Of a DNA stretch of 64,000 nt, positions 4,863 through 53,038 are shown one piece after another. The stretch is from NCBI GenBank assembly GCA_030267965.1, contig BRYA01000148.1:1-64000 (forward strand). The letters are read 5' to 3'. Position numbers and translations under genes: made by a program. Positions within the stretch are counted from its first letter, which is position 1. Every line of letters starts with the position of its first letter. The notes below the pieces were generated by a model. That model ran no database searches and was not told the origin of the DNA. It worked only from the letters and a program-made list of their open reading frames with translations. This stretch comes from Triparma columacea (taxonomy: Eukaryota; Sar; Bolidophyceae; Parmales; Triparmaceae).

Positions 4863-5726
4863 GAGGGGGGGGAAGGCTGAAAGGTGGAAGGTTAGTTTTG
4901 GGATAAGTGAGATGTATTTTGAGACGGTATCGGTCGCGGCGAAATGATGAGGGGCAACAACAGTTGTAGCTAATTAATATACGGCAATTGATTCCAGTGC
5001 AGTCAACCAACCCCACCGTCCTGGTCGAGGCACCAAGGTGGGTTTGAGCTTGAGCTTAAACATATAATCATCTAGTATTATGATCCGATTATATTTTTAC
5101 GTTGCGGTCGTTTCTTCCTCAATTTACGTCTCATATCCCCCGAGCTTGGGCCTCCATGCAAATTCTTACCTTCAACGAAGCTTACAGGGGCTAATTCTAG
5201 GGGTTTACTTTGGCTGAGGACGGGTGGGGGAAAGGGGGGGAGGTGGTGAGGGATAAAGGGTGATAATATTTCTCAAAGAATCTCAGAAAGTCCGGGCGTA
5301 GGGTACTGTAAGCCCGGGAGTGTAGCTAAAATCCCCGTTGGGCCTCTCATGATGATATATAATCCGTGGAACCTCATATACTGGTCGGAGGTGGCGCCCT
5401 TGTGATATTTCTATTCACTGCCGGATATGTGTTTCTTTTGCATTAAACGCGCCAATTAATAGACAGTGGTCACTTCCCGTACGTCCTCACCTAAGTTTTC
5501 GCTTTGCTTGGTTATTTTCCTAAGTTGAAAAATGTGTTCATTAATCACAAAAAAAACTTAAGTTGACCCCCAAGTACGGCGGGCTAACCCACACCCAAAC
5601 CCTAAAGCCACCATTAAAAAAACCAAGAGAATCCTTTAAAACCCCGTCCTAGTATTAAATACACCTTTGTCGTCCCCCCACACCTCCCCCCCAACCCCCC
5701 TCTGCCGCCCACCCATCACCTTACAT
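4863..5726. other. Intergenic region, promoter side of START gene and 3' side of channel gene
   Basis: About 860 bp between the start of the START/XKR-like gene and the stop of the channel gene, both on the minus strand. I see no convincing ORF, tRNA or repeat. It should hold the promoter of the former and the 3' UTR and terminator of the latter. Confidence 0.5.
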
Positions 5727-8700: not shown

Positions 8701-11700
8701 GCAAAGTGCTTCTGGTTCTCGACGCAGGGCCCTTGAATGACCTCCAAAATAGTGCCGGCAACCGCGATTCCGGCCTCCGTGCTCTCGGGGCAAGGATTCT
8801 TGCTTAGGAACGAAAGGTAGTTAACAAAGTCGTCCAAGAGGTTAAAGCTCCTTGGGTTGTTCGGCTGCTCCCTGCAAATGCCCTGGTTAGCGTCGAAATG
8901 CCCTTCGCTCATAAGCTGTATAGCGCGAATGAGGATGATACCGTCGGGCTGGGCAACGTCCTCCTCCTCCCTCTCGATGAGATCGGCAGAAACGTTCTTG
9001 GCGACATAATTGTCATGGTTGTACTTAACGTCGTAGCTCCCGTCCTCGTGGACCTTCTCGATGGTAGCCCTGAAAGTATCCTCGCTCCACTTCCTACTTT
9101 GCATGCCCATCTTCGTTCTCTGCCTCTTAGCCATGACCTCTTCGCCAATTTCAAGTGCGCTATCTTCGTCGTCGCCGCTATTGGTCATGCCGGCGCTCCT
9201 CGCTTTCTCTTTGGCCTCGTCCTCTGCCTCGATGACCTTGATCTGATGCCACTCCATCATCTTCCTGAGCCTGTTCCTTATCTCCTCAAAGAAATGGCCA
9301 GTGCCCCTTTGATTCAAGTGAGAGAAGATGGTCGCTTGAACCTTTTTGTTTCCGCCCTCCCTGAAAAGCAGGGCGACTAGCAAGTTAACGCCTTCCTCGA
9401 CAACAACTTCGTTCATGCCATCTGCAATTACGTCAAGGCAGAGGATTGTGGCTCCGCACTCGTCAAGGGTGTCCTGGACAGGGCCAGCAGCCTCGTCCTC
9501 CTCCTCCTCGCCGTCGTCGTCCCTCTCGTCGATGCCCATCTTTCCTGCATTTGGCCCTTCCCTCTTTTGAAAGCTCTCGGTCCACTTGGTCTCTATCAAG
9601 GCTCTTAGCAGCTGGATTGTCCAAATGGCAGTATCGATACACTCCCTTGGAATGAACTTCTTCCCCTTGTCCTTCTTGATCAGGTTCCTAGTGTGAAGTA
9701 TGAGCTTCTTCAAAGTCGGCTCGTACCTTATCTCGGCGATGACGTCGTCTGCCTGCCTTGGTAACTTATCTAGAAGCTCAACGAGGTGATCGGTTCGGTC
9801 TTCGGATATTTCTTCAGCCAGATCCTCGTCGTTCTCGAGCTCCCTGATGAACTTCTTCAAGCTGACAACTTCCTCGTCAGCCTTGTTGTCCTCGATTTCG
9901 TCCACGGGGTCGCCAATAAGAACGTCGACGTGCAGAGGGAGGTCAACAGCGGAGAGGGCATCAGAGCTCATGCTGATGCTGTCCATTGCCCTGTAAAGCC
10001 ACCTGTTCTGCTCGTCTGTAACCATGGGGCTCTTGAGGTCGTAAAGTGTCTTGTAGCTGTGGTAAAGGTCGTAAAAGATCTTGTCAATCCAGTGCATAGT
10101 GGCAGAGGAGTCATCGCCTTCCTCCTGTATGATGTCGTTGAGCTTGTCCTCGTTCCTGAACTCAGTTCCCTCGTAGTATCCTTCAAGGAATCCGTCCATT
10201 ACCTTGGCGCTAAGGAGAACGAAGTGCATCATCTTCCTCATCTCGTCAATACTGACATCTCCTCCGAGCAGCGCGTCAGCCATGGCCTTAGGGGGCTCCA
10301 CCATAGTCTTGAAGGCCTCCCATAGCTCAGGGGACTTGCTCAGTCCGGGGATGGCGATCTCGACCTCAACGTAGGCTTCGTAGAACAAGTTCATAAGGCC
10401 GATCTTCACGTCGATGATAGTATTCGGGTCAGCAATGGCCTTCATGATGTTCTCGTACTGGTAAAGACTCTGAAGCTTGGCCTCAACAGTTGTGATGTTA
10501 GCTCTGCCCACGGCGCACCCAGCCAAGATGTTAAGGAGCATGGTGTGGTACCTGAGCAAGGCGGGCGTCTGATTGGGAGGTGCCCACATCTCTTTGGCGT
10601 GCTCCTCGGCGAGCTCGTCCTCAAGATTTTCGGCGGAGGGAGGAGCGACATCCTTTCCGGACCTTATCTTCATCATGGCTATCCTCTCGGCGTACTCCTC
10701 CGAAGTAGGTTCCTGGCAGAGATAAAGGGTCTTGTGTACCCTGACGCTGCTAGTGAACTCCTTAATGATAGCGTACTGATGGCTGAGCTGATTGTAGTCG
10801 GCAAAAGATACGATCGATTCGATCAAGTCAAGGTAGTCTGGTTTTCTCCCATTGGTGGCGATCTTCTCTGCAAACTCGCCGATCAAGCTCTCGGGGAATT
10901 CCTTCATGAGTTTCTCGTTCTTCCTGAAAATCTGGGCAATCACCCTGGTCGAATCAATCTCATCGTCAATGGTCTCCTGAAGCAACTCGAGGTTCCTAAA
11001 GGCGAGAGCCTGGTTCTCCTCGTTGTCCCTGACGAACCAAGTGAGAAAGGTGTTGCATAGAAGAAGGATGCTGTGAACCTTCTCACTCTTGGTGGATCCA
11101 AGGGACTTCGATCCAAGGGATCCGACAGACACGGCGTCGTCGTCTTTTCCTTTCTGCTCGCCAACTGTCGAATTGTCATCGTCTTCATCGTCCTCGTCGT
11201 CGTCGTCGTCGTCATCATCGTCGTCGTCGTCGTCGTCGTCGTCGTCCAACTCGCCAGCAAGCTCCAAGACCGTCGCAGCGACCTCGAAAGCTCCGAGGTT
11301 CCTCAACACATTTTGAAGGTCGGTGTTTGCAACCTCGTCGCCTCCGTACTCCAGCGTATCGTTGCTAATCTTCAAGGTGTCCGTGAGATCTGCAAGGATT
11401 GTCAACACCTCGTCGCAAATCTCAAAGTCCTTAGGGCTCTCAAACTCGACCCAAAGTTCACTCTTCTCCGCATGTTCCTCAAGAAGCTTTAACTTAAGGA
11501 AGAGCTTGTCGTGAAGTTCTTCCTGCCAGTTCTTCGTGAGGAGCTGGACCTGCTTTAGATTGTCCATAAGGATGCGTTTTGTTGAATGGTGGACCATTAG
11601 GACCTGGAGAGAGTTCTGGACAAGGTCAGGGTAATCGTAGTAGCACAAGTCAATGAATATGTGCTCGAGATCGCCGGTGTTGTCGAGCTCAAGCTCCTTG

Positions 11701-14700
11701 CTGGATTCGATGACATTCTTGAAGATCTCTGTCGGGCTCTGCTTTAGCTCTCCCTTATGCCAGAGCTTAAAGCTGTTCATCATTTTGCTGACAGAAAAGT
11801 CCTGGGAGAGCCTAGTTATCTCCGAAAGGGCCTTGACCATCTCGACCATGGTTGAGAGCTGGTCCTCGGGGGTGCTGCTGAACCTCTTGGGGGCGGTCCA
11901 CTTGGGGTACAAAGCATCCTGCTTCTTGGTCATCTCGTTGACGAGCCTGGCAGCGCGAAGGATGCGGAAGAGCTTGGCGACACGAGCGATCCTGAGCATC
12001 TTGGTGAACCCTCCAACGTTGCCAGGCATGAAGCTTTTGCCGGCCTGCGATATGACAATGATAATAACGTCCATGGCGACAACTGCGACGTCCAAGTTGT
12101 GGAACTTATCCTTGAAGAATGTTCTGAACTTTTTCTTGACGACGGTCCAGCAATGCATGCGGAGTAGCAACTCAATCGCAAAGAGAGCAAAAGTGGTGTA
12201 CTCAAAAACGTCGTAAAAAATACCCTCGTCGTCATTGGCCATCTGATAACCAGAAACGGCGAGGCAGAGAAAAACAAGGCCGAGGACGAGAAACATCCAT
12301 CGGGTTCCGCTCATCGTCTTGAGCACCGGGATCTGCCACGGGATGTTCTGCTTGGCGAAATCGCCCTCGGGGGCAATCCTGATGGAGGCCCTGCCCCCTT
12401 TCTTGTGCGGAGACATGGCCGACACAGCCTCTTCCATGTCCTCGGCCGCATTCCTACGATCAAGAGACTTTATGATAGGGTTTACAATGTACTGGACTTG
12501 GGAAGAGGACGTGTAGAAGCGGAACTTCACGAGAAGCATGAGGGACTCCATCAGACGGCGGGTGAAAACGTTCCATGTCGCCCCGTCGATGAGGCTCTCG
12601 AGGTGTTCCGTTATTGCCTCCTGGAGGAAGGCAAACTTCTTGGCCCTAGATTTCTCTACGGAGGGAAGAGGAGTCGGTGAGTCGGGGTCAATCTTGGACC
12701 AGATCCGCGTCAAGGTTGGGAGGCGGACCATGTTCTGAGGGTATGCGTCGACGTAAAGACAGTTCATGAGGCGGGTGATTGCGGCACGGAACTCGTCCGG
12801 AAGTTTGTCGTCGCGCAGAATGCAAAGAAGCATATTGTAGGGAATGCGTTCCTCAAGGAACTGCATAGAAATGTAGTTCCTGTCTAGGCATGTCTCAGCG
12901 TACAGGTAGATCTGGGACACAAAATACTCGGCGACCATAAGCTTCCTGAGCTGAAGGGTGGAGATCTCCGAGGATGCTGCCTTGAAGGCCCTTGTACTTG
13001 CAGTCTTGCGAAACGCCCTGTTTCCAGCCATTGTCTTTCGGCCGGCGGTAGCCCCCCTCGCAGGAGTGTTCTTTGCCGCAGCCTCGGCAGCATCCTCAAT
13101 CATGTCGGCAGCATTGCCACCCTTCCTGCGGACCTCGGCAATAATGTCCTCGTCGGCAAGGATTTCCACGACCTCCTTGAGGGGGACGGTGGATTTGGCG
13201 TACAGGTGAATAGGGGAGAAGTCCTTAAAAGAATCGTGCCACTTGACGTTGATTGCCGGCTGGCCCCTCTCCTTCATTTCCCACCCGGACGTCGTCTCGT
13301 CAGCCTCGTAGGCTTCCACAGATTTCCACTTGCACTCCATACGGTTAACATCGTCAAGGTTGAGCTTGATAGTTAGTTTAGATTGCTACGGGAGGGTGAG
13401 AGAGAGAGAGAGAGAGAAAGAGAAGAGAAACGACGGCCGTAGGGTTGTGTTAGTGTTCACATTTCAAAGTGTTAAGCTGGTCGTTTTGTTCTTCATTCCT
13501 TACCTTCTCGAAGAACTGCTCGACGACAAGTCCCTGGTTCCCGTCCACGCCTTCACCGTTGCAGTTGCACGTCGCGCGGAGGAGGTTGATGTAGTTGGCG
13601 TTCATCTTGGAATTGCTGATCATTTCAACGAAGATTTTGATCTCCTTTGAGGTGACCTTCTCCTCCTGCAACTCCATGTTGGAACCTAGCATCTCCACCA
13701 CGCACTTTGTGGCGAGGGTGGAGGTCGACACATGCCTCAGAATGATGGCTAGGTTATTCGCGATGCTCATCTGGTTGACGTCGTTGTCATACATGGAGCA
13801 GAAAATTAACCAGAAGCAGGACTGGGAGTGGGAGTGGAGGGGGTGCGGCGGTGATTGGGGCGTTGGCTTTCGTCGTTGGTCTTCTCTTCTCCCCTCTCGG
13901 TGAGGGTTATCCCAATCTTACCTTGCTGACGTTCTCGATGACGGACTTGAGGAGGATCTCGTGCTCGCGGGTCTTCTTGAAAAGGTGCAACTCGTCCCTG
14001 GTGATGGCAAACGTGCGAAGGAGCTGCATGCAACAATCGAGAATATTCTGCTCCCTGAACAACTGCTGGCGGTTGCGGACGGTCTCTTTCATGATCTCGA
14101 CGTGGAAGGACGAGGATTGAAGATGTGCTAGGTCGTGCATGGAATACGAAAGTTCCTCGTCGAGCTTCAATGAGAGGGAGGGAGGATTGTAAGACATTTT
14201 ATTTTAGTTTGAGATGAGAGGCTCTGTCACTTGTTTTCCATGACCTATCAAAATCACTCGCTTTCAGGTACTTACCTCCCTCATGATGCAAAAGTTGGTG
14301 AGCTTTGCGAGAACTTCAAGGGTTTCTTCGAGCATTTGCGAGATGGTGATGAAGTCACGAGTCATGAAGGCACGCTTGAATTCGACAAGAACGGGAAGGG
14401 CGTCCATGCCGTACGTAACGTCGATCCTCCGTTTCTTGGGGACGCTCGTTATGATCATTGCGAGGGACTCTGACTTTTTGGGGATCCCAGCAACGTCAAA
14501 GACAGCCTTGTTCTGTGGAGACGAAAGTGTGGGTGGGGGTGTATGGGTTGGATAACCGGACGGTTTTGCATTTCATTGGATTGCATTGCATTGCATAACA
14601 GTATCATCATTTTTAAATGCATCAAACTATATTATCAAGCTCACCTGAATTTTCTCGTAGTTGTAGTCGCCGCGCTTGAGGAACCTGGCGTTGTAGGACT

Positions 14701-26548: not shown

Positions 26549-28788
26549 TCAATCGGTGGTAGTTTCGGGATTGGATGCGAGGTTGGGGGCAATGACTGCG
26601 ACATCCGGAGCCGCCCCAAGAAAGACGCTCGACTTCCGCCTTCTCTTTTTGATGATTCGTTGTACCTCCTTACCACGAATTTTGGCGAGAATGTCCTTAT
26701 CCTCTACAAGCTCGTCCAGAATAGACGATTTTACGTCAGAATCAAACCACTCAGGGCTGCGATGAGAGAGAAATTGGAGAAGTGGGTGAATGGGTGAGCA
26801 AATGGTGTTCTTGCATGACGAGGAAGTGGAACTCTCACCTTTCGTGCAGCAATTTTGGAAGATTGTTCGTCAAAAAAGCCTTGACATCCTCGCCAATCTC
26901 TGGCAACCAGAGATAAACATTACAAATAAAGACGTCGAACTTTAATTCATCGTCGGCCTCCTTGAAATTATTTTGAATATAATCTCTCGCGCATTTCAAA
27001 CTTGTGAATGTGTGAAGGAATCTTTGATCCATGGAATAATAAAGGGCGATCACCGACATGAAGAGACAAAAGCAGCTGCTGCCCATGACTGCCCATACAA
27101 CCTCGTTCGACCAAACTCCTTTGCAGTCTTCCTGATCGTAAAGAGCTGCCAAAATGATCCCGCCGAGGGCCATCAAGAACATGCTGAAGGAAAACATTAT
27201 GCCTCCTACCTCCTGGGGGTGCCGAAATTGCACACACGCTGTCCAATCAGCGCCTAACTTCACAAATAGACGAACCATAAACGTACACACAAAGCCGGCG
27301 ATACCATAAATGGGAAGCCAGTACCGAATATCTCGTCTGAGATTTGCGATGGCAGCGTGAGAATTATTGCAGCGGTTGGAGAGATGGGGGGGGGGGGCGT
27401 CTCATCTCACCTCCATGTTTTGACCATAAGATAAAGAAAGAACTCAGCAATGAGCACCCCAATAGCAACCATTTTCCCCCCTAACATATACATGAGGACA
27501 ACAGACATTGCCCTGCAGGTGTAGTTAAAGAAGCTGATGGAGAACAAAGCGATCATACATTTCACCTTTGACTTCCTGTTGAGGGGTATGTATCCATAGA
27601 ACTTGTCTTTCGTCCTCCTTTCTATGGAAATGTCGTAATCATAGGAGATGAATGCGGACATTGCCGCCGCAGAAGACACGCTCGACAGAAAAGCCAATAC
27701 GGAAGTCTTGTCGAATTGGGTTGTCATGAGCGCAACAAGCTGGATGACCCCAGCTGCGACGATCGAAGCGACGGTGCAGGGGCTGCGTTAGTCAAGCATG
27801 AATAGATTGATTATGTACAACCATTTTTCTGTCTCGGCTGCGCCCCTCTGCTTTGCTTTTTTCTTCGCCCATTCTCTCTCTCACCTGGGACAGATTCCAT
27901 CACAAGCTCCGATATCCTCGCGCCTGGGAGGTGAAGGGGGGAAGGGGGGGGGGNNNNNNNNNNNNNNNNNNNNNNNNNNNNCGCATAAGCAAAGGGGTGT
28001 GAATCGAGCCGCTGTTGCAAAGCAGCCTTTCGCACATGATTGATTGACAGTCTCACCGGTCATCTCGAAGTAAAGGCTGAAATAGCGGTGATCCGATGGT
28101 GAGTGCATCTTTGCACCTGCCTTATTGACCCTCCAAATGTCGAATCCGGGTTTCAGGAAAGAGAACACGATGAGTTGCTGTACAGTTTGTGAAGAAGCAA
28201 AAGGGTTGAGCTTGAGCAGGCTGAAGCAAGTTGAAAAAAGTTAAACTGCGCCACAAACCGTCCCTGGCACGTAACTCCCGCCCCATATCTCACCTCTTGG
28301 CATTGCACTTTCCACGGCCGCTTTTTGTTTTGAAGATAAGCAAGGACACTCTGCCCCAACAAGTTCATCCCGATACACACAAGGGTGGCTACCGCGAAAC
28401 TTGTTCGATCGGTTTGAAAGAATTTGCGGGTCATGAAAATGTCTGTGATGGAGTCAGCAATTGAAAATGCTGCTGTCCCATACGACTCAATGGATTGGTA
28501 AAGTTTCGAGTCGATTTTTGGAATTTCTATTTTGCCTATAATAGAAATAGTCCTGCTGGCCCGAATCTCATTTTTTGTACTCTGGTTGTCGTCTTTAATT
28601 ACTTGGGCAGATTTTACTTGGGAAGTTGGAGTTTGGGATGAAAGAATTTTGCTCGTGTCAACGGAGTCAGGTAAGCCTTTTGGTGTTTCAGGTTCCGTTT
28701 CAGGTTCAGTTGTGGTGTGAACGCCTCGTACTTTGACAGAGTCGTGAGTGCTCACTGTGAAAACCGGGGTGACCTTGGAAGCAGCCAT
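26549..28788 (-). CDS. XK-related-like membrane protein without START domain
   Basis: Six exons: 28788-28294, 28177-28057, 27923-27885, 27753-27411, 27336-26839, 26756-26549; 567 residues. The last exon is not obvious because a TGA follows the GTGAGA donor at 26838; splicing at CAG/CCCTGA restores PEWF, matching KPDWF in the 717-4862 paralogue. Shared motifs in order: SIADSITDIF, KPGFDIWRV, ESVPAGVIQL, AFISYDYD, KFYGYIPLN, VQFRHPQEVGG. The N-terminal ~100 residues are hydrophilic and Thr/Ser rich, with no START. The C-terminal tail has RRRKSSVF, a basophilic kinase-type site. Proposed family role, by analogy with XK proteins only: lipid scrambling or another membrane function. Confidence 0.8.
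27943..27981. other. Assembly gap (28 N) next to poly-G in an intron
   Basis: Ns at 27954-27981 follow a G-rich run in the intron between exons 2 and 3 of the XK-related-like gene. Both gaps in the window abut G homopolymers. The flanking exons remain in phase (phase 1), so the coding model is unaffected. Confidence 0.9.
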
Positions 28789-28979
28789 GAGCTGTTACCA
28801 GGATCAAATCAACTTGTTTTGCAACATCCGAACAACTTGCAGGTGAGATTCCATGAGAGATCCACTTCCGGACTACTGTCTGTGAGTATAAAACCAAATT
28901 GATACAATTCTAAATATAAAACCAAGCGATCGTTGATTTAGAGAAGCTCCGCCCCCACCCACCCCGTCAGCTTCACTCG

Positions 28980-39034: not shown

Positions 39035-40195
39035 TTAGTGCATAACGGAGTGATGTCGTTTGAGATTGCCTTTGTGCTTCGCTTTGTAGTCGCAGTCCTC
39101 ACAGTGGTGCCAGGTCACGTTTTTATTGTGGATGTATACACGATGCTTCTTGAGGTTACCTTTATCCTTCGCTTTGTAGTCGCAGTCTTCACAGTGGTGC
39201 CAGATCACGTTTTCATTGTGGATAACTGCACGATGCTGCTTGAGTTTGCCCTTTCGCTTCGCTTTGTAGTCGCAGTCCTCACAGTGGTGCCAGGTCACGT
39301 TTTCATTGTGAATACTTGCACGATGCCTGTTGATATTACTTTTATGCTTCGCTTTGTAGTCGCAGTCCTCACAGCGGTGCCAGGTCACGTTTTTGTTGTG
39401 GATTAATGCGCGATGTTGTTTGAGGGAGCCTTTTTGCTTCGCTTTGTAGTCGCAGTCCTCACAGTGGTGCCAGGTCACGTTTTCATTGTGGATGGATGCG
39501 CGATGGATCTTGAGGTAGCTTTTTTGCTTCGTTTTGTAGTCGCAGTCCTCACAGTGGTGCCAGATCACGTTTTCATTGTGGACATCTGCACGATGCCTGT
39601 TGAGAGAGCCTTTTCGCTTCGCTTTGTAGTCGCAGTCGTCACAGTGGTGCCAGGTCACGTTTTTGTTGTGGATATCTGAACGATGCTTCTTGAGAGCGCC
39701 TTTTTGCTTCGCTTTGTAGTCGCAGTCCTCACAGTGGTGCCAGGTCACGTTTTTATTGTGGATGTGTGCGCGATGTATCTTGAGGCAATGTTTCCAATTT
39801 GTCCTGTAGCTGCATCCACGTTCACTACAAACAAACTTCTTCCCATCCTTCACACTACCCACAGCTTGCTCTTTGACTTCTGCCTCTTCGTCACTATCCT
39901 CATCAATCGAGACTAGATCATCGTCATAGTCGTCGTCCTCCTCCTCCTCCTCTTCCTCCTCTTCGCTTTTGTTGCTGTTAGAGTCTATCGAACGCAAAAT
40001 CACTTCCTCCTCTTCACTACCCTCCTCCTTCTTACACACCCCACAAAGCAATGAGCCTCCACCCCATTCTTCTTCAAAGCTACTCTCACCCTCAACATCC
40101 TCCACCTTGCAACCAGCTTGATCAACCTCACCATAACCGCTGGGAAGCTCAATTTTCACCCTGCTCCTCTCTTCCTTCGTTGTTGTCTCCCTCAT
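39035..40195 (-). CDS. Nine-finger C2H2 zinc-finger protein, copy 1
   Basis: Open exon of about 386 residues from the ATG at 40195. The N-terminal ~120 residues are acidic (long Glu/Asp runs). Nine fingers follow: one degenerate-spaced leader (FVCSERGCSYRTNW) and eight near-identical 28-29-residue units of form WHxCEDCDYKxK-x7-H-x4-H joined by HNENVTWHH. The linkers are not the TGEKP type. Residues differing between units sit at the helix positions that would contact DNA. A paralogue lies at 42698-43759 and duplicated flanks on both sides show a segmental copy. A second open frame, overlapping the 5' end in a different phase, is conserved in both copies (see findings). Confidence 0.88.
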   Translation of the reverse strand: MRETTTKEERSRVKIELPSGYGEVDQAGCKVEDVEGESSFEEEWGGGSLLCGVCKKEEGSEEEEVILRSIDSNSNKSEEEEEEEEEDDDYDDDLVSIDEDSDEEAEVKEQAVGSVKDGKKFVCSERGCSYRTNWKHCLKIHRAHIHNKNVTWHHCEDCDYKAKQKGALKKHRSDIHNKNVTWHHCDDCDYKAKRKGSLNRHRADVHNENVIWHHCEDCDYKTKQKSYLKIHRASIHNENVTWHHCEDCDYKAKQKGSLKQHRALIHNKNVTWHRCEDCDYKAKHKSNINRHRASIHNENVTWHHCEDCDYKAKRKGKLKQHRAVIHNENVIWHHCEDCDYKAKDKGNLKKHRVYIHNKNVTWHHCEDCDYKAKHKGNLKRHHSVMH

Positions 40196-40762
40196 ATTCT
40201 TCAAGCTCTATTACGGTACCCTCAAGCTCCCTGAAAATGGCCTTCCAGTGTGTGAGATCTTCGGGGATGTTAGGGGCAAGCACTTGCAGATCCAAAATGG
40301 GGAGGTTCGGTAGGAAATCGAGGGAAATCGTTGATGAAATACGGCCAAAACCGCAAATGTCAAAATCACAGGGTTTTGTGAACGAGTACCCAAGAAAATA
40401 TCAACAGAGAAAAAGAGCCAGCTCCGAATTTTTTGCCAATTTATTTTGCAAGAACAATTCTTTCTCAAAAAAAGTCTAAACACGTCCTACGTCTTAAGTG
40501 ACAGAACCTTTTCCCAACAGGCTACTTTATCAAAGCAGGAATTCGGAAGGAAAGTAGACTAAGTCCGAAGAAGAAGTGAGGAATCCCCTTCCTGAGGCAA
40601 ACAGATAAACCGCTATCTTTTTTTTTTAGTACTTCCCCCCCCCCTTCCTGGCGTCTTCTATATCTTTCCGATTGAAGTCATCCCCGACAGTCGTACGGCA
40701 TATAGTTGCGATTTTGAAGAAGCTTTCCATCTTCCTGGGAAGGTTTTTACAGTTCACTAAAC
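40196..40762. other. Duplicated upstream flank of zinc-finger copy 1 and promoter of next gene
   Basis: 40196-40385 is highly similar to 43760-43945. It encodes, on the minus strand, a conserved open frame containing TKPCDFDICG and FLPNLPILDLQVLAPNIPED that overlaps the zinc-finger start out of frame. 40470-40540 repeats the CGTCCTACGTCTTAAGTGACAG element also present near 38880 and 42550. The remainder is presumed promoter of the plus-strand gene at 40763. Confidence 0.6.
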
Positions 40763-42349
40763 ATGACCTCCACGAAGGTTGCTCCACTTCCCGCCCAGTC
40801 TCCTCAAGTTTCCTCCCCCCGATCTGAGGAGACGCCAGTCGTCGAGAATGAGCTTGATAGAGAGCGGGAGGATGACGATAGCGAAGGTCGCGTTGGAGAT
40901 GAGGAGAACATGGAGAATGGCAAAGTTGAGGAGGAAGTTGCGAAGGCTGAGGATGGCAAGGAGGTGGATGACAACAAGGGAGGACCTCCTCCTCGACGGG
41001 GCAGCATCCTGGACTCTGTCCGTCGGGCATCTATCGATGCCGCGCTCGAAGTCGGGGCGCAACTTGGTGCCATCAGACCAGACACAGATGGTGTTAAGGA
41101 AGAAAAGCCCCAAACTAGCATCACCGTCATTGATAATCCGATATCTTTTTGGCGCCACACGCTCACCTCGAACGTGCAGGGACTGGCGAGCGCGTTGCCG
41201 TCGTGCTTTCTCATCCTTTTAATGAAATTCGTGAATTACAACCTTGTCAAGTTTGGAGGGTTCTTTGGTGACATGCACGTGGTGAGGTGCTTCGGGTGTC
41301 TCCTTTACGTGGATGCTATGATTTCGGTGGCAAGATGGGAAAGGGCGTTCACCAAACTGATGCTTCTTTGCAAAGTCCCTGGGCAAATCACATTCATGGT
41401 CGCAGTAAGCAGCGCCTTCGAGTGGAAGCTGGGGCCTTGGACGTTTGTCGTAGCGACGCTTGCATTTTCTTTCGGGGAGATGTGTACTTATATCATTGAC
41501 ATGCAGGAACAGCCTCGTCCTCCAGTGACCAAGTACATGGTCAAATGCCTCGTCCTCGGTTTTGTCGTACATGGGATCATCGTGTTCGTGATAAGCGCAT
41601 TGGTAGTCCCCACAAAGTACCTTGCAGAGTGGGAGAACGATATGGTGACAATGCTCGTGACTGGTATAGTCTTTCCGGTCATCATATTTCTCGTCAGAAA
41701 GGTATATGTCAGCTTCCTTCCAAAATTTGTCGCTGAAAAGGAAGGATGGTCGGATGAAAAGAAAGTAGAGTTCTTAACCACACTCCTTTCGGTCGGTTCT
41801 CTCGGGATCCTCCTCACGCCCTCCGTCCTGCTCTACTTCAATGCCAGTGTAAAGTATGCACTATTTTCGGCTTTGTGTCAAGTGTTCACTGAGGTGGGAG
41901 GCAAGGTTTGGACGGTATGGGCGACGAAAAAATTCGCTCGTTTCTCAGCCAGAATCAATCATGACATTGCAAATGAGAAGGACGACGACATTGGTTGGGC
42001 TGAACTGCTTCGACGGGCATTGGCCCTTCTTGCAATTCGCTACCACTCTGAAATTGTCGCCGAGAAGGGTTGCATAATCACAGCGTGTGAAATCGCTTTC
42101 CTCTACTTCCGCGATCAAGTCGGCACCTCTAGCACCGATCTTATTATAATCGGCTTTGTCTTCTACGTTTTCGAAATGATCACCGATTGCATCTTCGTAT
42201 GGGTGATGCACAACATGCTTGACGTTCCCATACTTTCCGCCGTCCCCCATTTCAAATTTCTGTCTACGTCGAATCTGCGAGCGCAAGCAGTTTTATCCCT
42301 AACATTCGTGGCAATGTCCAACTGCATCGCGATGGCATCTAGCGTGTAA
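40763..42349 (+). CDS. Unknown polytopic membrane protein with RRASIDA motif
   Basis: Intronless, 528 residues. An acidic, disordered N-terminus (~1-125) contains RRGSILDSVRRASIDA; SVRRASIDA is identical to a site in the C-terminal tail of the START protein at 717-4862. About nine hydrophobic helices follow between residues ~145 and 528, with conserved-looking loops WERAFTKLML and RYHSEIVAEKGC. I do not recognise the family. It sits between the two duplicated zinc-finger genes on the opposite strand. Confidence 0.75.
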   Translation: MTSTKVAPLPAQSPQVSSPRSEETPVVENELDREREDDDSEGRVGDEENMENGKVEEEVAKAEDGKEVDDNKGGPPPRRGSILDSVRRASIDAALEVGAQLGAIRPDTDGVKEEKPQTSITVIDNPISFWRHTLTSNVQGLASALPSCFLILLMKFVNYNLVKFGGFFGDMHVVRCFGCLLYVDAMISVARWERAFTKLMLLCKVPGQITFMVAVSSAFEWKLGPWTFVVATLAFSFGEMCTYIIDMQEQPRPPVTKYMVKCLVLGFVVHGIIVFVISALVVPTKYLAEWENDMVTMLVTGIVFPVIIFLVRKVYVSFLPKFVAEKEGWSDEKKVEFLTTLLSVGSLGILLTPSVLLYFNASVKYALFSALCQVFTEVGGKVWTVWATKKFARFSARINHDIANEKDDDIGWAELLRRALALLAIRYHSEIVAEKGCIITACEIAFLYFRDQVGTSSTDLIIIGFVFYVFEMITDCIFVWVMHNMLDVPILSAVPHFKFLSTSNLRAQAVLSLTFVAMSNCIAMASSV

Positions 42350-42697: not shown

Positions 42698-43759
42698 TTA
42701 GTGCAGTGAGGCGCGATGTCGTTTGAGATGTGCATTTTGCTTCGCTTTGTAGTCGCAGTCCTCACAGTGGTGCCAGGTCACGTTTTCATTGTGGATTAAT
42801 GCGCGATGCTGCTTGAGTTTGCCTTTTTGCTTCGTTTTGTAGTCGCAGTCCTCACAGTGGTGCCAGGTCACGTTTTCGTTGTGGATATCTGCGCGATGCT
42901 TCTTGAGGTGGCTTTTTTGCTTCGTTTTGTAGTCGCAGTCCTTACAGTGGTGCCAGGTCATGTTTTCGTTGTGGATCAATGCGCGATGCCTCTTGAGATT
43001 GCCTTTGTGCTTCGCTTTGTAGTCGCAGTCCTCACAGTGGTGCCAGGTCACGTTTTCATTGTGGATTAATGCGCGATGCACCTTGAGTTCGCCTTTTCGC
43101 TTCGCTTTGTAGTCACAGTCCTCACAGCGGTGCCAGGTCACGTTTTTGTTGTGGACGGATGCGCGATGTCGTATGAGATGTGCATTTTGCTTCGCTTTGT
43201 AGTCACAGTCCTCACAGTGGTGCCAGATCACGTTTTTGTTGTGGATGGATGCGTTATGCAGCTTGAGATGACATTTTTGCTTCGCTTTGTAGTCGCAGTC
43301 CTCACAGTGGTGCCAGGTCACGTTTTCATTGTGAATACTTGCACGATGCTGCTTGAAGCAAAATTTCCAGTTTGTCCTGTAGCTGCACCCAGGTTCACTA
43401 CAAACGAACTTCTTCCCATCCTTCATACTACCCACAGCTTGCTCTTCGACTTCTGCCTCTTCGTCACTATCCTCATAGATCGAGACTACATCCTCGTCCT
43501 CCTCCTCTTCTCTGTCGTCGCTGTTAGGGTTTATCAAACACAAATCCACTTCCTCCTCTTCACTACCCTCCTCCTCCTTACAAACTCCACAAAGCAACGC
43601 TGCTCCTCTCCCCCCTCCCCCACCAACGTCCTCATCTTCCACTTCTTTCTCACCCTCAACTTCCTCCACCTTGCAACCAGCTTGATCAACCTCACCATAA
43701 CCTCTGGGAAGCTCTATTTTCACCCTGCTCCTCTCCTCCTTCGTTATTGTCTCCCCCAT
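42698..43759 (-). CDS. Eight-finger C2H2 zinc-finger protein, copy 2
   Basis: Open exon of about 353 residues from the ATG at 43759. Paralogue of the gene at 39035-40195: the N-terminus GETITKEERSRVKIELPRGYGEVDQ is shared almost exactly, the acidic region is shorter, and eight fingers follow. Unit identity is highest in the linker and lowest at helix positions (KQKCHLKL, KQNAHLIR, KRKGELKV and so on), the pattern expected if DNA specificity diversified. It differs from copy 1 by one finger. Confidence 0.88.
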   Translation of the reverse strand: MGETITKEERSRVKIELPRGYGEVDQAGCKVEEVEGEKEVEDEDVGGGGGRGAALLCGVCKEEEGSEEEEVDLCLINPNSDDREEEEDEDVVSIYEDSDEEAEVEEQAVGSMKDGKKFVCSEPGCSYRTNWKFCFKQHRASIHNENVTWHHCEDCDYKAKQKCHLKLHNASIHNKNVIWHHCEDCDYKAKQNAHLIRHRASVHNKNVTWHRCEDCDYKAKRKGELKVHRALIHNENVTWHHCEDCDYKAKHKGNLKRHRALIHNENMTWHHCKDCDYKTKQKSHLKKHRADIHNENVTWHHCEDCDYKTKQKGKLKQHRALIHNENVTWHHCEDCDYKAKQNAHLKRHRASLH

Positions 43760-44068
43760 ATTCTTCAAGTTCTATTACGGTACCCTCAAGCTCCCTGAAA
43801 ATGGCCTTCCAGTGAGTGAGATCTTCGGGGATGTTAGGGGCAAGCACTTGCAGATCCAAAATGGGGAGGTTCGGTAGGAAATCGAGGGAAATCGTTAATG
43901 AAATACGGGAACACCCGCAGATGTCAAAATCACAGGGTTTTGTACACGATAACCCAAGAAATTCTACAGGGCACTTTTCTCTTTTGTCTCCCTCATTTCT
44001 GAACACATACACACACACTCTCTCTCTCTCTACACACACACGCACACAATCTTCATCTCAAAATCATA
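43760..44068. other. Duplicated flank of zinc-finger copy 2 and promoter of next gene
   Basis: 43760-43945 matches the 5' flank of zinc-finger copy 1, including the overlapping open frame with TKPCDFDICG. 44000-44047 is CA/CT simple sequence just upstream of the next plus-strand start. Confidence 0.6.
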
Positions 44069-47172: not shown

Positions 47173-50100
47173 TCAACCGCTCATCCCCCCTTCTTCATCC
47201 TCCTCTTCGATAACGACACCAACCTTCCTCCCCCCGCCAACTTCCATGTCTTCGTCTTCATCCTCCTCATCCTCCTCTTCTTCAATGCCCAAACTCATCC
47301 TCAAACTCATGCTATTCCTTCTACCCCTACTAGCCTTGTCCCCCAGTTCCAGTGCCCTCTTCGCCCGCAAGGCGTTTGCTTTCCCTTCCAGCATGTCGTC
47401 GGGGATGTTTGCCAGGAAGAGGTCCGACCACCACAGTGGCTTCTCCTCCACCCAGTCCAAGACGTTGTCTTGTACATATGCCTTCACGTCGTCTCTGAAG
47501 TGGGCGTAGCATGACTCGTGATGCGTAATGGTGTACGAAAGTTTAACGTCTGGTTCTGATCGTTTGTAGAATATCCTCTCTGCCTGGTCCGCTCCTGTTT
47601 CCAAGGAGAAGAAAGTGGAAACGTGGCTGCGATTGATGCTGAGGAAGAACGACACGAAGAATATCACAAGTATACCATTGCAGGCGACTACAAAGGGCCA
47701 AACCACCTCACCATTAAGTCCTCCACCACTCCCTCCGCCAAGATACACGGCCGCGACAACAAAAGTTGCGCACTGGTTGAATATGAGATTTCCAGTGAAT
47801 CCCGCGCCACCCATCCCCAATGGTATAATTGCCTCCATCCATGCTGTGAAATCCGTAGTTGTTTTCGCCATAATGTGCCAGAGGACTATCAAGAGTAATG
47901 GGGCATCATGGAGGTAGAAGTCACCTCTCCTGAGAAGCTTTCGCGCAAAGAGCAGCAACATTGGGATCACGAAGTACAGGACGAGAACTACAAAGCCCAT
48001 CTTCCGAAGAAGAATCACGTTGAAAATTTGGGATGCCATCGTACACGCTGATATACCCATCATGAGTACTAAGACAAGAATCCGGTTCTTGTCTGGAATC
48101 ATTCCATATGTCTTGGGGTCTTCTCGTCTATTCAAAGGGTTGACGTCCAAATCATATGTGAGTGACTGCATCGCGAAGCTAGTGGCCATTATTGACATCG
48201 CGAGGGACGAAAGCGAAGTAAACGAAACTGCCTCGCTGTCGCTGATGCGCCCGACGATAAATGTCGCCTGGACGACAGCACCGGGGATTGCCTCCGTGAA
48301 TGTCTGAGAGGGAGTTTGTGACAGGCTAGTTAAGAGGCGGCGAAGGGTTTGATGGTGTTCATGTGGGGACAAAGGGACTCACCTCCAAGAGCTTAGTTAT
48401 CAGCATCTCGATTTCCGGAGAGATGTTCTCGTAAAATTCCTGCTCCCCTCTTATCACCCGGACTGCGTCTTGTGCGGGTTTGAGGCAGAGGATTGTTAGA
48501 AGCATTTCCTTTGCCATCACCTTCGGTCGCTTGCGCCTCTGAAAGAACACGACGACAAGTTGTAAGATGATATTAAGCACAATCATGCATAATATTGCCC
48601 TTGCCTTGATATTCTCGCCAGTAGCAAAGAGTTCAGTGATAATAAATATGTCGGAGCCCATATCGAGGAGGGAGAAGGAAGTGCCCAGGAAGACACGGAA
48701 TTTCAAGCCCAAGTCGGCAGTAGCGAGCTTTTTACGCGCTACTACTTCGAGAAAGGGCCGAAAGAAGGAATACCTCTCGTCGAGCTCCCGCATGCTGGGG
48801 AATGTCAAAATGAACTCATCCACCGCAGCAGCAGCGGTGAGGTTGCCGATGATGAGGGAGCTCATTGTCTTGCCAATCCTACGTCCATCAGCCTCAGTGA
48901 TGTCCGCCAGCGGCTTGTCCACCTTACATGGTGTTGCAAGTTGATTCCTCAGTATATTCATCAGCATCGGCGCGAATGCCTTATACTTCCCATGAAATTC
49001 CCTCAGAGCACGATTTTTCTCCATCATCACCGTTAATGCTAGCTGCCCCATTGCATGTCTGCTTTTACTCCCAACCATGAACGCGTCCATCGAGTCCATC
49101 AGCATCGTGCCCATTGCGGTGCCGTCTTCAACGTCAAGCTCATCAAGCTTCCGGAGGTTTTGGAAATACCGCTGCACCTGGCTCACCGCGCGCACTGTCA
49201 TGGGCTTGCACATTTTCTCATTCTCCATCACAACCGAGTGCGTCTTGAAGTCCATCTGAGCATACAGCTCGATGGTGGTTTTCTGTTGCCCGACCGCCTT
49301 GTTCTGGCCAAGCTCCATCTGTCGTGTCGAGATTCTCTCTGCCTTGATTCGAAACACCATCGCGTTGCTAGCTCGCACTCGGTGATCCTCCTCTGGTGCA
49401 TTGGAATGTGTAGTGGGGAGCACAACATACAAAATATCGCCTTTGCCGTCCAACCTGCTGCAGGTTTGTCTACTGACGACAGTGCGATCGCGGAACCTGC
49501 CAGTAGGGATTCGATATGTCGACAGCGTTGTTATCGAACGCATCGCCCCCATCTCCCCCTCCTCTTGTTCGACTTTGAAGTGGTCGCGCACCATCATATC
49601 GTTTTCAGCTGCCTTGCTGAAGTAGGCCGAGTCAAAGTCGTGAAGGAAGCACGCAACGTCGATGGGGCTCGCTCGTACCTTGACAGTGGCCTTGAAGGTC
49701 TTTCTCCCTTCATCTCCCCAAGTGCAACTCTCCAATTCTACTAACCCATTGCTCTGCTCGAGAGGCTCCATGCGAGGTTCCGCATCCACTATTATCTCTC
49801 TCCCTCTCTGCAGGGCATCCCTCTCCTCGTCAGTCTCGTCGCTGTCGCCTTGGTCTATATGGTTGAAGAGACGCTCTCTGATCTCACCCCTAGAAGTAGC
49901 GTCACCCAACCGCGCTTCCTCTTCCATATCTCTTCTTGACCCTTGGACTTCACCGTCCCAGTGAGAGACTCGGCTGCCCTTGTGCCTCTGCTTGCGCGTG
50001 CTACCTATCACCGACACTTTCGTCTGGAACGTTGACGCTGTGTGTGTCACTGTGGAGCCGACGATCCTGCGAGCGTTACGTTTGCGACGGCCAAATAAGA

Positions 50101-51204
50101 GTCCCCGCGCCTGCTTTTGTAGCTCAGGCTCAAAGTATAGATTCACGATTGGATTGATTGAGGTCATGGAGACGTTGAGGTTAAGAAAGGATAAGAACCT
50201 GTGGGAGCGGTCGGTAGAAAGATGTGGAAGATGTGTTAGATGGGACACCCCTACGCCCCCTTCGTCGCCCAACGACTTACATGGGAGGCCAGTAGCTGCT
50301 GCCAATCCCGAAAGGGAATAAGACGAAGAAAATTGCGTTGATGGCCCAGCAGGCTAAAAATAGCGCCGTGACGGTAATTGCGAACCAAGTCGCCCTTCGC
50401 TCGGCCTGCACGGCGGCCTTTTTTGTGCTACCCGTGCTTGAGGATGCCAGGAGGTCGCGAGTGATCTTGAGGGACTTGTAGGAGGTGAAAATCACAAGGA
50501 GGAGGCAGAAGGAGAAGTATGCTGTGTTCGCAACGGCGAACAAATCGTGCTTGAGAACGCCCTCGCCGCCAGTGGCGAAGCACATGGAATTGGTAAATAT
50601 CGGCGCATAATGGCCGTATTCCGAGCTGGTGAGGACGGGTAGTGAAGCGTGGAGTAAGAGTCCAGGGGCGACGACGTCTGTGTGTGCGGGAAGGAGTAAG
50701 TTGGGGTTGCATGGTGGAGGAACGAGGAGGGAGTCGTGACTTACATTTGAAGATCCTCCAGTGTGGGGCGACGCTGTTCTTGGCGACACTACCACCGTCG
50801 TTGTTCCTGAGCAACCGAAGCCTGTAGAACCGCTCCCACACGAGCCCAGTGATGGCGCTGAACTGTAAGGTGCTCACAAAGTGGAGCGCAACGCCGTTGA
50901 ACTGGCAAACAGCAAAGCTAGGAACCTGTCGCCGCTGCAGATTCAGGGCCGAGAGCACGAACCTCGCGGAGAAGAATGCCAGGTCGACCCAACACTGGAT
51001 CCGCTGCCCGTGGCGATGTGCATGATTGCCACGGCTACCTCTGCGGTAGAAGCAAAGGAGGAGGAGAGAAGTGATCCCCATCCCCAGTAGGTACAGGCAC
51101 AGCTCAAGGGACACGAATCCCTGTCGAGTAGGAGTCATGAGGGGGGGCATCGGATGGGTCGAGTTGTTCCAGTTGTAGCCGTAGAGATCGGCATAGGAGG
51201 CCAT
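47173..51204 (-). CDS. GPCR-like 7TM / START / XK-related-like fusion protein
   Basis: Four exons: 51204-50745, 50677-50281, 50198-48383, 48303-47173; 1267 residues. Residues ~1-320 form a seven-helix receptor-like domain: N-terminal N-x-S/T site (NNST), TM3 Cys (FAVCQFN) with an ECL2 Cys (NSMCFA), WERFYRL at the end of TM3, CWAINAIFF in TM6, and NPIVNLYF closing TM7. A basic tail follows. Residues ~437-635 form a START-like domain (SPIDVACFLHDFD..). About 782-1160 form the XK-related-like domain: LLDMGSDIF, KPAQDAVRV, ETFTEAIPGAVVQ, SLTYDLD. The C-terminus has a RRNSMSLRMS site and an acidic end. TM7, START and the first helices of the last domain lie in one uninterrupted exon, so that fusion does not rest on splice prediction. 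Probable role: ligand-gated control of a lipid-handling membrane module (inference). Confidence 0.87.
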
Positions 51205-51541
51205 CGTTTGGAGGGGCCTTGTGGAAGGTTGGTCGTCGCAGGGGGGTTGAGAAGTGGGCTGTTTTGGGGTTGTTGGCTAGGGGGTGGCATACACGCGCGA
51301 CACTAGTTAAGGAGTACCAGTATGCTGCGGCACTAAGGGTGAGAGGGAGGGGTCAGAGCCCAAACTTGATTCTCAACTCCGAACTGTATTTATTCTGACA
51401 ATCCGGGTCATTCCGTGCGCAAGGGTGAGAGCAAAACTTGTTTTTGGCAAATAAATTGAAACACAAATCCAGCACTTTTTTGAGCCCGCCCTGCCCAAAT
51501 CGTGACACATGAGCAACCCGGAGTTTCTATAAAAACGGCGA
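51205..51541. promoter_or_regulatory. Divergent promoter region
   Basis: 337 bp between the start codons of the receptor fusion (-) and the next membrane protein (+), so both promoters are here. No recognisable element. Confidence 0.45.
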
Positions 51542-53038
51542 ATGAGCGAAACATCTCCCTCTCAACCCTCAACCCCAGCTGACCTGGCCTCTACTGTTGC
51601 AGATGAAGCTCCTCCCCCGCCTGCCGCCTGGCTCCGTCCAGCCGCGTTGCTCTTGTCCGATGCTGTCTCATACATTGCCTCCCAAATAACCGGCCCTGCC
51701 TCCCCACCCCCTCCCCACCTCGAACCCTTGATGAACTTCCTCAAGGCTCAGGGGCCTACCAAGAACATCATCAAACCTTCCGACCCTACTCTCGTCGACG
51801 AGGAGACCACGGTCGATGTAGTCACTGAGCGTCCTCTCCTTGATGCATCAAAATATTCCATAAACGATCGGACAAAAAGAAGGCGGTCAAGCGTGTCTAT
51901 CGGCTCGCAAGTGGAGATGGTAGAAAGGGAGTTTACGGTTGGGGACAAGAACAGCAGCCAGGTTGCACCCTTCGGTGACGAAGCATCTTATAGTGAGCGC
52001 ATCACTCCTAATGTGTCGGCATCAGTGACTGAGAAGGTAATCGGAGAATATTCAACCGTGCCGACCTCGACGATTGTGGTCTTCGAGCCGAAGCTCGAGG
52101 GAGGCATGCTCAAGGATGGTGTAGTACTGAAGGACCTAGTGCGGAACACCAGAGGCCTGGGGAGCTTCGTAGAGGGTTTCCTTCAGCCCATCGGTGCTTT
52201 TCTTACTTTCATACCTGCGCCGTTACTTCCTTTGTGGGGGCCATTTGCGATCGCGGGCTTGACAAATACAAGCCTTGGTGACGGAACAGAGAGCATCACC
52301 AAGGCCTCTGTAGTCATATTGATGTTGTCTGGTATTGGCGGCTCGGTTTTTTGTTGCATTATGGCCATGGACTATCATGTCGGCACCTTTTCCCTCATCA
52401 TTCGAAATGCCAAGCTGACGATTCTTCTCAACATTGGCAGTCGTCTCGTGTATACTGTCGCTGCCATTATCCACTACCCTCACGCCGCAAACGTTTGCTG
52501 TTTAGTTGGCCAGCTAATAACGACAGTTAACTATAGCTTCATGGACGCGCTGAAAGTAACCCAAATGATGCGCTTTACTGAGGAGGGTTACAAGGCCGCG
52601 TTTGGGAGCGCCATCGCTGGTTTTCTAAATTTTTGTGTGTTCGTATTCAACTTTATCTTCGAGTTGTGCCGGCACTTTGCTATCCTCAAGTTGATGAGTG
52701 ATAGCGACGAGGTGAACGTGGTTGCGGTGTTGCCTGCGAGACTGTTCGGTAGTGAGCTCGTCATCACAAACTTGAATCTCATGAACGTCACATTCACGAC
52801 CTCCATGGTGCTGTACTTGAGGTCTATACTACTGACATTTAGCACCGGGGGCAAACGATTTGTGGTCCTCAACACGCCTATCAACTTCAAAGCTGTCTAC
52901 AGACCAACGGCGCTGCCGATAATAGGAGACGAAGATCCACCTCCTGACGGAATAGGAGACGAAAACCGTGAGGATCCGCAACCTGACGGTATATCAGACG
53001 AAGACCCACCAGGCGAGGATCCGCAACCTGAGGAATAG
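51542..53038 (+). CDS. Unknown polytopic membrane protein with acidic Pro-rich repeat tail
   Basis: Intronless, 498 residues. A hydrophilic N-terminus (~1-205) includes KRRRSSVSIGS, a basophilic phosphosite-like run. About seven hydrophobic helices lie between ~215 and 440 (GAFLTFIPAPLLPLWGPFAIAG; VVILMLSGIGGSVFCCIMAM). The C-terminus is built of degenerate 10-13-residue repeats (DEDPPPDGIG, DEDPPGEDPQP). Family not recognised. Divergent orientation from the receptor fusion gene suggests possible co-regulation. Confidence 0.7.
   Translation: MSETSPSQPSTPADLASTVADEAPPPPAAWLRPAALLLSDAVSYIASQITGPASPPPPHLEPLMNFLKAQGPTKNIIKPSDPTLVDEETTVDVVTERPLLDASKYSINDRTKRRRSSVSIGSQVEMVEREFTVGDKNSSQVAPFGDEASYSERITPNVSASVTEKVIGEYSTVPTSTIVVFEPKLEGGMLKDGVVLKDLVRNTRGLGSFVEGFLQPIGAFLTFIPAPLLPLWGPFAIAGLTNTSLGDGTESITKASVVILMLSGIGGSVFCCIMAMDYHVGTFSLIIRNAKLTILLNIGSRLVYTVAAIIHYPHAANVCCLVGQLITTVNYSFMDALKVTQMMRFTEEGYKAAFGSAIAGFLNFCVFVFNFIFELCRHFAILKLMSDSDEVNVVAVLPARLFGSELVITNLNLMNVTFTTSMVLYLRSILLTFSTGGKRFVVLNTPINFKAVYRPTALPIIGDEDPPPDGIGDENREDPQPDGISDEDPPGEDPQPEE

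Follow-up and report, generated by a model that had tools for sequence, protein, structure and literature searches.

G-protein-coupled receptors (GPCRs) usually signal through diffusible partners. In six types of oomycete protein, namely GPCR-PIPK, GPCR-INPP, GPCR-TKL, GPCR-AC, GPCR-PDE and AP-GPCR, a seven-transmembrane (7TM) receptor and an accessory domain share a single chain, and such GPCR-bigrams occur also in amoebae (PMC5784254, PMC6033456). The accessory domain of a bigram is catalytic by definition (PMC6033456), and the GPCR fusions described carry mostly enzymes (PMC5784254, PMC6033456). In addition, class A GPCRs moonlight as scramblases, the 7TM bundle itself scrambling phospholipids constitutively (PMC10874734). 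Here we describe a gene in which a GPCR-like receptor is joined to a START domain and an XK-related (XKR)-like polytopic domain. The gene was found within a stretch of 64,000 nucleotides of Triparma columacea (Bolidophyceae, Parmales; contig BRYA01000148.1, positions 1 to 64,000), hereafter called the window.

GPCR-bigrams are the closest kind to this fusion: 7TM receptor and accessory domain or effector form a single chain, several bigram types concern phospholipids, and a conserved block lies in the linker (LRxGI in GPCR-PIPK, PMC5784254; GSRVSH in the fusion). The accessory domain of bigrams is catalytic, whereas that of the fusion is START-type and followed by a scramblase-type domain, the second polytopic one of the chain, and neither START nor XKR belongs to any of the six types as published in PMC5784254. 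In our Pfam scans, no enzyme family C-terminal to the 7TM region scored above the cut-off, and only START- and XKR-type regions were recognised. The predicted lipid-handling nature of the accessory domains is what is new. The moonlighting class A receptors likewise unite a bundle of this class with the scrambling of phospholipids, for the fusion a predicted activity, in one molecule, but there the 7TM bundle scrambles, whereas in the fusion a separate attached XKR-type domain would do so. Among START multidomain proteins of Parmales (PMC10328945), the C-terminal half of the fusion finds its place in a large START-XKR family, but section 7 of that paper mentions no GPCR joined to START, and the term 'XK-related' has 0 occurrences in its main text. 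Among the open-access literature matches listed, supplements left out, no GPCR-START-XKR fusion was found.

The fusion gene runs on the minus strand from 51204 down to 47173, as the original prediction had placed it, and the gene model contains four exons coding for 1267 residues. Exon 1 (50745..51204, minus strand; residues 1-153) carries the start codon, the extracellular N-terminus, transmembrane helices TM1-TM3 and intracellular loop 2. Exon 2 (50281..50677; residues 154-286) adds TM4-TM6, including Cys186 of extracellular loop 2 (ECL2) and CWAIN in TM6; exon 3 (48383..50198; residues 286-891) TM7 with NPIVNLYF, a basic tail, the linker, START and the start of the XKR-like domain; and exon 4 (47173..48303; residues 892-1267) the remaining XKR-like domain and tail. 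Introns 1-3 are 67, 82 and 79 bp long, in phases 1, 2 and 0, respectively, with canonical splice sites (donors GTAAGT, GTAAGT and GTGAGT; acceptors CAG), and TM4 is continuous after splicing of exon 1 to exon 2. The translation is identical over 1267 residues to the public T. columacea protein TrCOL_g8199 (P0001). The three domains had been claimed to continue in the same open exon. This held from TM7 on, as exon 3 contains TM7 and START as well as the initial helices of XKR, with zero stops between TM7 and START; it did not hold for TM1-TM6, encoded by exons 1 and 2, or for the later XKR part in exon 4. As TM7 and START both belong to exon 3, receptor and lipid module cannot be taken apart, and a receptor without exon 3 would have six helices only. 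At the level of sequence, a receptor-START-XKR-type fusion in one conserved reading frame was thus confirmed.

The same order of domains was found in another genus. Tetraparma gracilis TeGR_g15167, of 1244 residues, shares it at 42-45% identity, and T. columacea itself has two further fusion copies, on contigs C155 and C347, beside that of the window contig (C147). The C155 copy is intact, codes for 1273 residues and keeps the exon-intron structure and the splice sites of the C147 gene. The fusion is considered more than chance, because both the counterpart in the other genus and the intact paralog keep the same order. Protein searches were set to accept sequences sharing 5-residue words with the query and 0.55-1.75 times its length, so that absence elsewhere is not proven by them; residues 1-345 as query retrieved three proteins among 5938 candidates (two from T. 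columacea and one from Tetraparma), and residues 420-1180 the same three among 7997 scored.

Divergence between the C147 and C155 copies was measured with our own NG86 script. The ratio of nonsynonymous to synonymous divergence (dN/dS) was 0.29 in the 7TM region (residues 28-320; dS 0.53, dN 0.15), a pattern of purifying selection, 0.45 in the tail and 0.42 overall. Along the gene, dS between paralogs dropped from 0.44-0.64 in residues 1-270 to 0.06-0.14 in residues 361-810, which suggests that the 3' part recombined or underwent gene conversion.

Seven hydrophobic segments were detected by hydropathy in residues 1-305, and the 7TM region (residues 28-320; 50096..51123, minus strand, introns within the span) was delimited by hydropathy, topology and Pfam 7tm_1. 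With TM borders set partly by hand, the predicted inside loops contain 5, 5, 7 and 8 lysine plus arginine residues (sum 25) and the outside loops 1, 2, 1 and 0 (sum 4). This positive-inside pattern indicates that the N-terminus would be outside and the C-terminus, and hence START, in the cytosol. For the 7TM part of P0001, Pfam 7tm_1 gave 28.5 bits (E 1.4e-6), the cut-off being 30.5, and the Tetraparma counterpart passed with 39.0 bits. PF00001 is precomputed by the database for both the T. columacea and Tetraparma proteins, and UniRef already labels the latter as a member of a GPCR family. The best match in PDB of a three-sequence 7TM profile was the kappa opioid receptor (E 1.1e-4).

Class A GPCRs are marked by a Cys pair between TM3 and ECL2, an acidic-Arg pair at the end of TM3, CWxP in TM6 and NPxxY in TM7. 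The motifs quoted by the original prediction were all located, C100 with C186, CWAIN at 263 and NPIVNLYF at 301, together with ERF at 124. D74, C100, E124, R125 and C186 are invariant across the three fusion sequences. The CWxP position is partly kept (CWAIN and CWTIC in T. columacea, CWSPV in Tetraparma), and the NPxxY position reads NPIVN in T. columacea. These observations support an N-out class A-like bundle with motifs partly kept. The genome has further 7tm_1 matches, the top one on contig C695 (60.6 bits); G-alpha is matched over nearly its full length twice (C46 and C82).

Between TM7 and START, the GSRVSH block is invariant in three public fusion proteins. The START domain itself, residues 413-656 (49088..49819, minus strand), was identified with hhalign against a reference profile built from ten START domains that Pfam recognises, taken from eight loci of the same genome and from pieces of the proteins P0076 and P0077. 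The query with nine relatives reached a probability of 98.8 over 172 columns (11 of the 12 sequences used), and the three fusion sequences alone reached 95.9, again over 172 columns. As controls, the alignments of the 7TM and XKR regions and a reversed version of the START alignment were used, and each of the three gave 0.1. A search of PDB with the START part alone returned no START protein, the sole chain being a T-cell receptor chain (E 0.2). Profile-profile homology thus supports the assignment of residues 413-656 to the START family.

The XK-related-like polytopic domain covers residues from about 760 to 1115 (47632..48778, minus strand, intron 3 within the span). The C-terminal half of the fusion aligns to family members lacking 7TM with E down to 4.5e-78. 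A 43-row alignment and profile of the START-XKR family, A3, matched four PDB sequences at E<=1, three of them START proteins and the fourth an XK-related protein (7p14, E 0.0036). The 7p14 entry, which we take to be rat Xkr9, was matched at profile positions 873-906 and 959-1014, inside the XKR region of the fusion (870-1021). As it is the only match within the region of the fusion, only the XK-related PDB match speaks for P0001. The paralog P0003 gave 17.1 bits with Pfam XK-related (E 0.0029; cut-off 24.8).

For scrambling by Xkr8, residues D26, D30, K134, E137, E141 and R183 are reported to be essential, and D129 makes a stabilising salt bridge (PMC8500837). Five of the six essential residues, D26, D30, K134, E137 and E141, are matched in P0001. 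In the A3 alignment, the first helix of the XKR-like domain contains D798-x3-D802 (48650..48664, minus strand) as counterpart of D26/D30, and E883, K888, E891 and, beyond intron 3, E895 (48292..48409, minus strand) correspond to D129, K134, E137 and E141. The spacing of the latter four (5, 3, 4) is the same as in Xkr8, D129 being replaced by E. Among the 43 rows of A3, the D26-like and D30-like residues and the D129-like E are found in all 43, the K134-like K in 39, and the E137-like and E141-like residues in 40 each. Since intron 3 lies between E891 and E895, splicing joins both and rebuilds the family motif. An RRxS/T motif was detected within the last 120 residues in 30 of the 43 rows, against 3.7 for shuffled tails, and reads RRNS in the tail of P0001. 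The PDB match and the charged residues support a domain of the XK-related type, the likeness to Xkr8 and 7p14 being one of sequence. Activation of Xkr8 depends on kinases or caspases, and its partner is basigin (PMC8500837), whereas the domain of the fusion is preceded by a receptor and START.

The original prediction had noted that the polytopic domain resembles two other genes nearby. BLASTP against the 472 open reading frames (ORFs) of 60 residues or more in the window bore this out. One is a START-XKR gene without 7TM near the contig end (717..4973, minus strand; ORF of 1418 residues), which matched the fusion with E 3e-59 and gave 29.2 bits with Pfam XK-related (cut-off 24.8) and 15 bits with START, below the cut-off of 22. 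The other is an XKR-like gene split over several ORFs (26835..28794, minus strand), with E 2e-7 and 2e-5 against the fusion and an XK-related score of 14.5 bits, below cut-off. In the genome, 120 XK-related rows were obtained at E<=0.1, of which 118 exceed the cut-off, some only jointly with in-frame neighbours. Many proteins of the family have START-profile matches at several positions. Among 78 START-XKR relatives found with gene 717-4973, 43 had an XK-related match and 15 a START match, and none a 7tm_1 match at E<=0.001; many of them lie on contigs of a few kb, so their N-terminal exons may be missing.

The members of this family are concentrated at contig ends. Of the minus-strand XK-related rows (rows, not genes), 73 of 74 lie less than 6 kb from the contig start, the 46 plus-strand rows standing outside this count, and for 19 of 20 located family matches without 7TM, less than 4 kb separates their end from that of the contig downstream. 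START-XKR genes at contig ends are transcribed toward the end. TTAGGG repeats were present at all four contig ends examined (C71, C527, C489 and C651), and among the telomeric ends listed a START-XKR gene lies within 8 kb at no fewer than 12 of 32 starts and at least 5 of 28 ends. The START-XKR genes thus look like a subtelomeric multigene family, for which no Parmales paper was detected among the literature matches listed. Both other fusion copies have a START-XKR family gene on their contig-end side (loci L053 and L054, at the starts of C347 and C155). By BLASTP, the neighbour on C347 is up to 81% identical over 336 residues to the family protein P0060, and that on C155 is 47% identical over 221 residues to window gene 717-4973.

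P0058, a transcriptome-derived protein of Bolidomonas, joins an XKR-type C-terminal half to a different membrane domain. The C-terminal half is 25% identical to residues 588-1223 of P0001 (E 4e-52). P0058 was considered as a second GPCR fusion and rejected, as its N-terminal membrane domain gave no meaningful alignment to 7TM; this domain had no match in Pfam or in PDB. Domains related to it occur in T. columacea in a second family located near contig ends (L059 and L061; C70 and C365), whose surface proteins combine, as read by eye, a large Cys-rich ectodomain with a membrane part, formed by the related domain, and a tail in the cytosol. The START-XKR module therefore seems to be carried by membrane proteins of no fewer than two kinds, an architecture expected if the module serves receptors.

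Taking these lines together, we propose, with a probability of about one half, that the fusion acts as a single-chain receptor-effector, in which a change in the receptor would be passed to START and the XKR-like, lipid-moving domain. We infer receptor-gated lipid scrambling as the likeliest mechanism. An outside cue would change the conformation of the 7TM bundle, and this change might be passed on without a diffusible messenger, because START hangs from TM7 and is joined to the XKR-like domain. START could hold or deliver lipid at the inner leaflet, as a clamp or a loader, and the XKR-like domain could open a charged path of Xkr8 type and move phospholipids between leaflets, the outcome being a changed lipid state of the cell surface or, locally, of the inner leaflet. 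RRxS-type kinase sites in the tail may provide a second control, and coupling to G proteins may operate alongside direct gating, G-alpha genes being present in the genome. More tentatively, the protein may represent a ligand-gated phospholipid scramblase, that is, a GPCR-type receptor with a covalent effector and START as loader or clamp, performing a one-step leaflet change, the module in Parmales sitting on surface receptors of more than one type. The earlier description, in which a receptor is tied to the binding and movement of lipids, stands as physical linkage, while the sensing of a ligand and the binding and movement of lipid belong to the predicted part. If the proposal is true, a GPCR with a scramblase-type domain would provide a direct route from receptor to bilayer, and the fusion would be a natural single-chain system for asking what gates XKR scramblases. 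A further suggestion is that START-XKR modules occur on membrane proteins of more than one kind in Parmales, marine algae that are sister to the diatoms.

Several observations weigh against this reading. Each of the three domain calls, although supported by sequence evidence, has one weak point at the Pfam cut-offs. When the profile checks called for by the original prediction were made on the fusion itself, 7tm_1 fell just under the cut-off (25.2 bits for whole P0001, both P0001 scores being below it), and neither START nor XK-related was matched, while relatives pass. The exon 3 ORF had no Pfam family at E up to 1, hence no direct START match, and the ORFs of exons 3 and 4 together had zero Pfam matches. 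Three PDB START matches of the A3 profile were dropped as support, since they sit on START repeats of relatives: they lie at profile positions 96-500, upstream of the START of the fusion at 528-743, and so give no evidence on the latter. In P0058, START was weakly supported (E 1) and XK-related reached 12.2 bits. The TM7 motif is NPxxN in T. columacea in place of NPxxY, and this position reads NSFIS in Tetraparma. As for the distribution in other Parmales, the predicted order was recovered from Tetraparma gracilis, and no match came from T. laevis, T. strigata or T. verrucosa, proteins of which are also included in the database, leaving the fusion in two species only. Outside the 7TM, dN/dS between C147 and C155 is laxer, with 0.78 for the linker, 0.52 for START and 0.56 for XKR. 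The missing counterpart of R183, the broken C347 copy and the gene models made without RNA-seq, all taken up below with the alternatives, count against the proposal as well.

A START-XKR part that reads the lipid state, and thereby tunes the receptor or sets where it is located, or that assembles partners at a membrane contact site, would make the fusion a lipid sensor or scaffold rather than a scramblase. This is possible, though we think it rather unlikely. Not all members of the XK family are known to scramble, and a large START-XKR family with START-profile matches at multiple positions suits lipid sensing. No clear counterpart of R183, the sixth essential residue of Xkr8, was recognised in the fusion or in the A3 comparison; in Xkr8 itself, the R183A mutant kept cinnamycin-induced killing (PMC8500837). 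Against a sensor or scaffold, the five other essential residues are kept across A3. It is less probable still that a START-XKR gene captured 7TM exons by subtelomeric accident, the 7TM being a mere anchor or, conversely, the START-XKR part passive freight of a GPCR. The crowding of START-XKR genes at contig ends, the family members adjoining both other fusion copies and the drop of dS between the paralogs, which fits recombination or gene conversion, would all agree with such an event. So would the C347 copy, which is broken by an insertion of about 3.9 kb (L051, about 3990-7830) that splits the 7TM between TM6 and TM7 and contains ORFs of unknown kind. The fusion is however not recent, as the Tetraparma protein has the same order at 42-45% identity; the 7TM is apparently under purifying selection, and the linker block GSRVSH is conserved.

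That a gene predictor merged two adjacent genes appears very improbable, even though the BRAKER2 models of both T. columacea and Tetraparma were made without RNA-seq (PMC10328945) and the public model of the C347 copy, P0003, starts only at TM7. The short P0003 model is explained by the insertion, which separates TM6 from TM7. TM7 and START share the open frame of exon 3, the canonical splice sites are kept in C155, and removal of intron 3 restores the E891/E895 motif of the family. An artefactual fusion was therefore rejected, as exon 3 holds TM7 and START and the order repeats in the paralog and in a second genus.

With respect to the contigs, C70, C71 and C75 each have TTAGGG arrays close to base 1 and further ones at about 75.5, 84.3 and 67.7 kb, respectively. 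At its right end the window contig C147 (80.9 kb) carries a TTAGGG array, and at its left end one of CCCTTTACA. T. columacea may have many very small chromosomes, which the assembly N50 of 52-83 kb in six of eight Parmales species (PMC10328945) would fit.

Other genes in the window were also recorded. Two plus-strand genes, 51533-53038 and 40718-42349, code for apparently polytopic proteins, with no Pfam match at E<=0.01. Adjacent minus-strand genes at 39035-40207 and 42698-43771 contain, by eye, long arrays of near-identical zinc-finger-like units (HCEDCDYKAK...H), and the pair is apparently a local duplication. On the minus strand at 5727-13385, an ORF of 2552 residues with RIH, RIH-associated, ion-transport and C2 domains resembles a ryanodine/IP3-receptor-like channel with C2.

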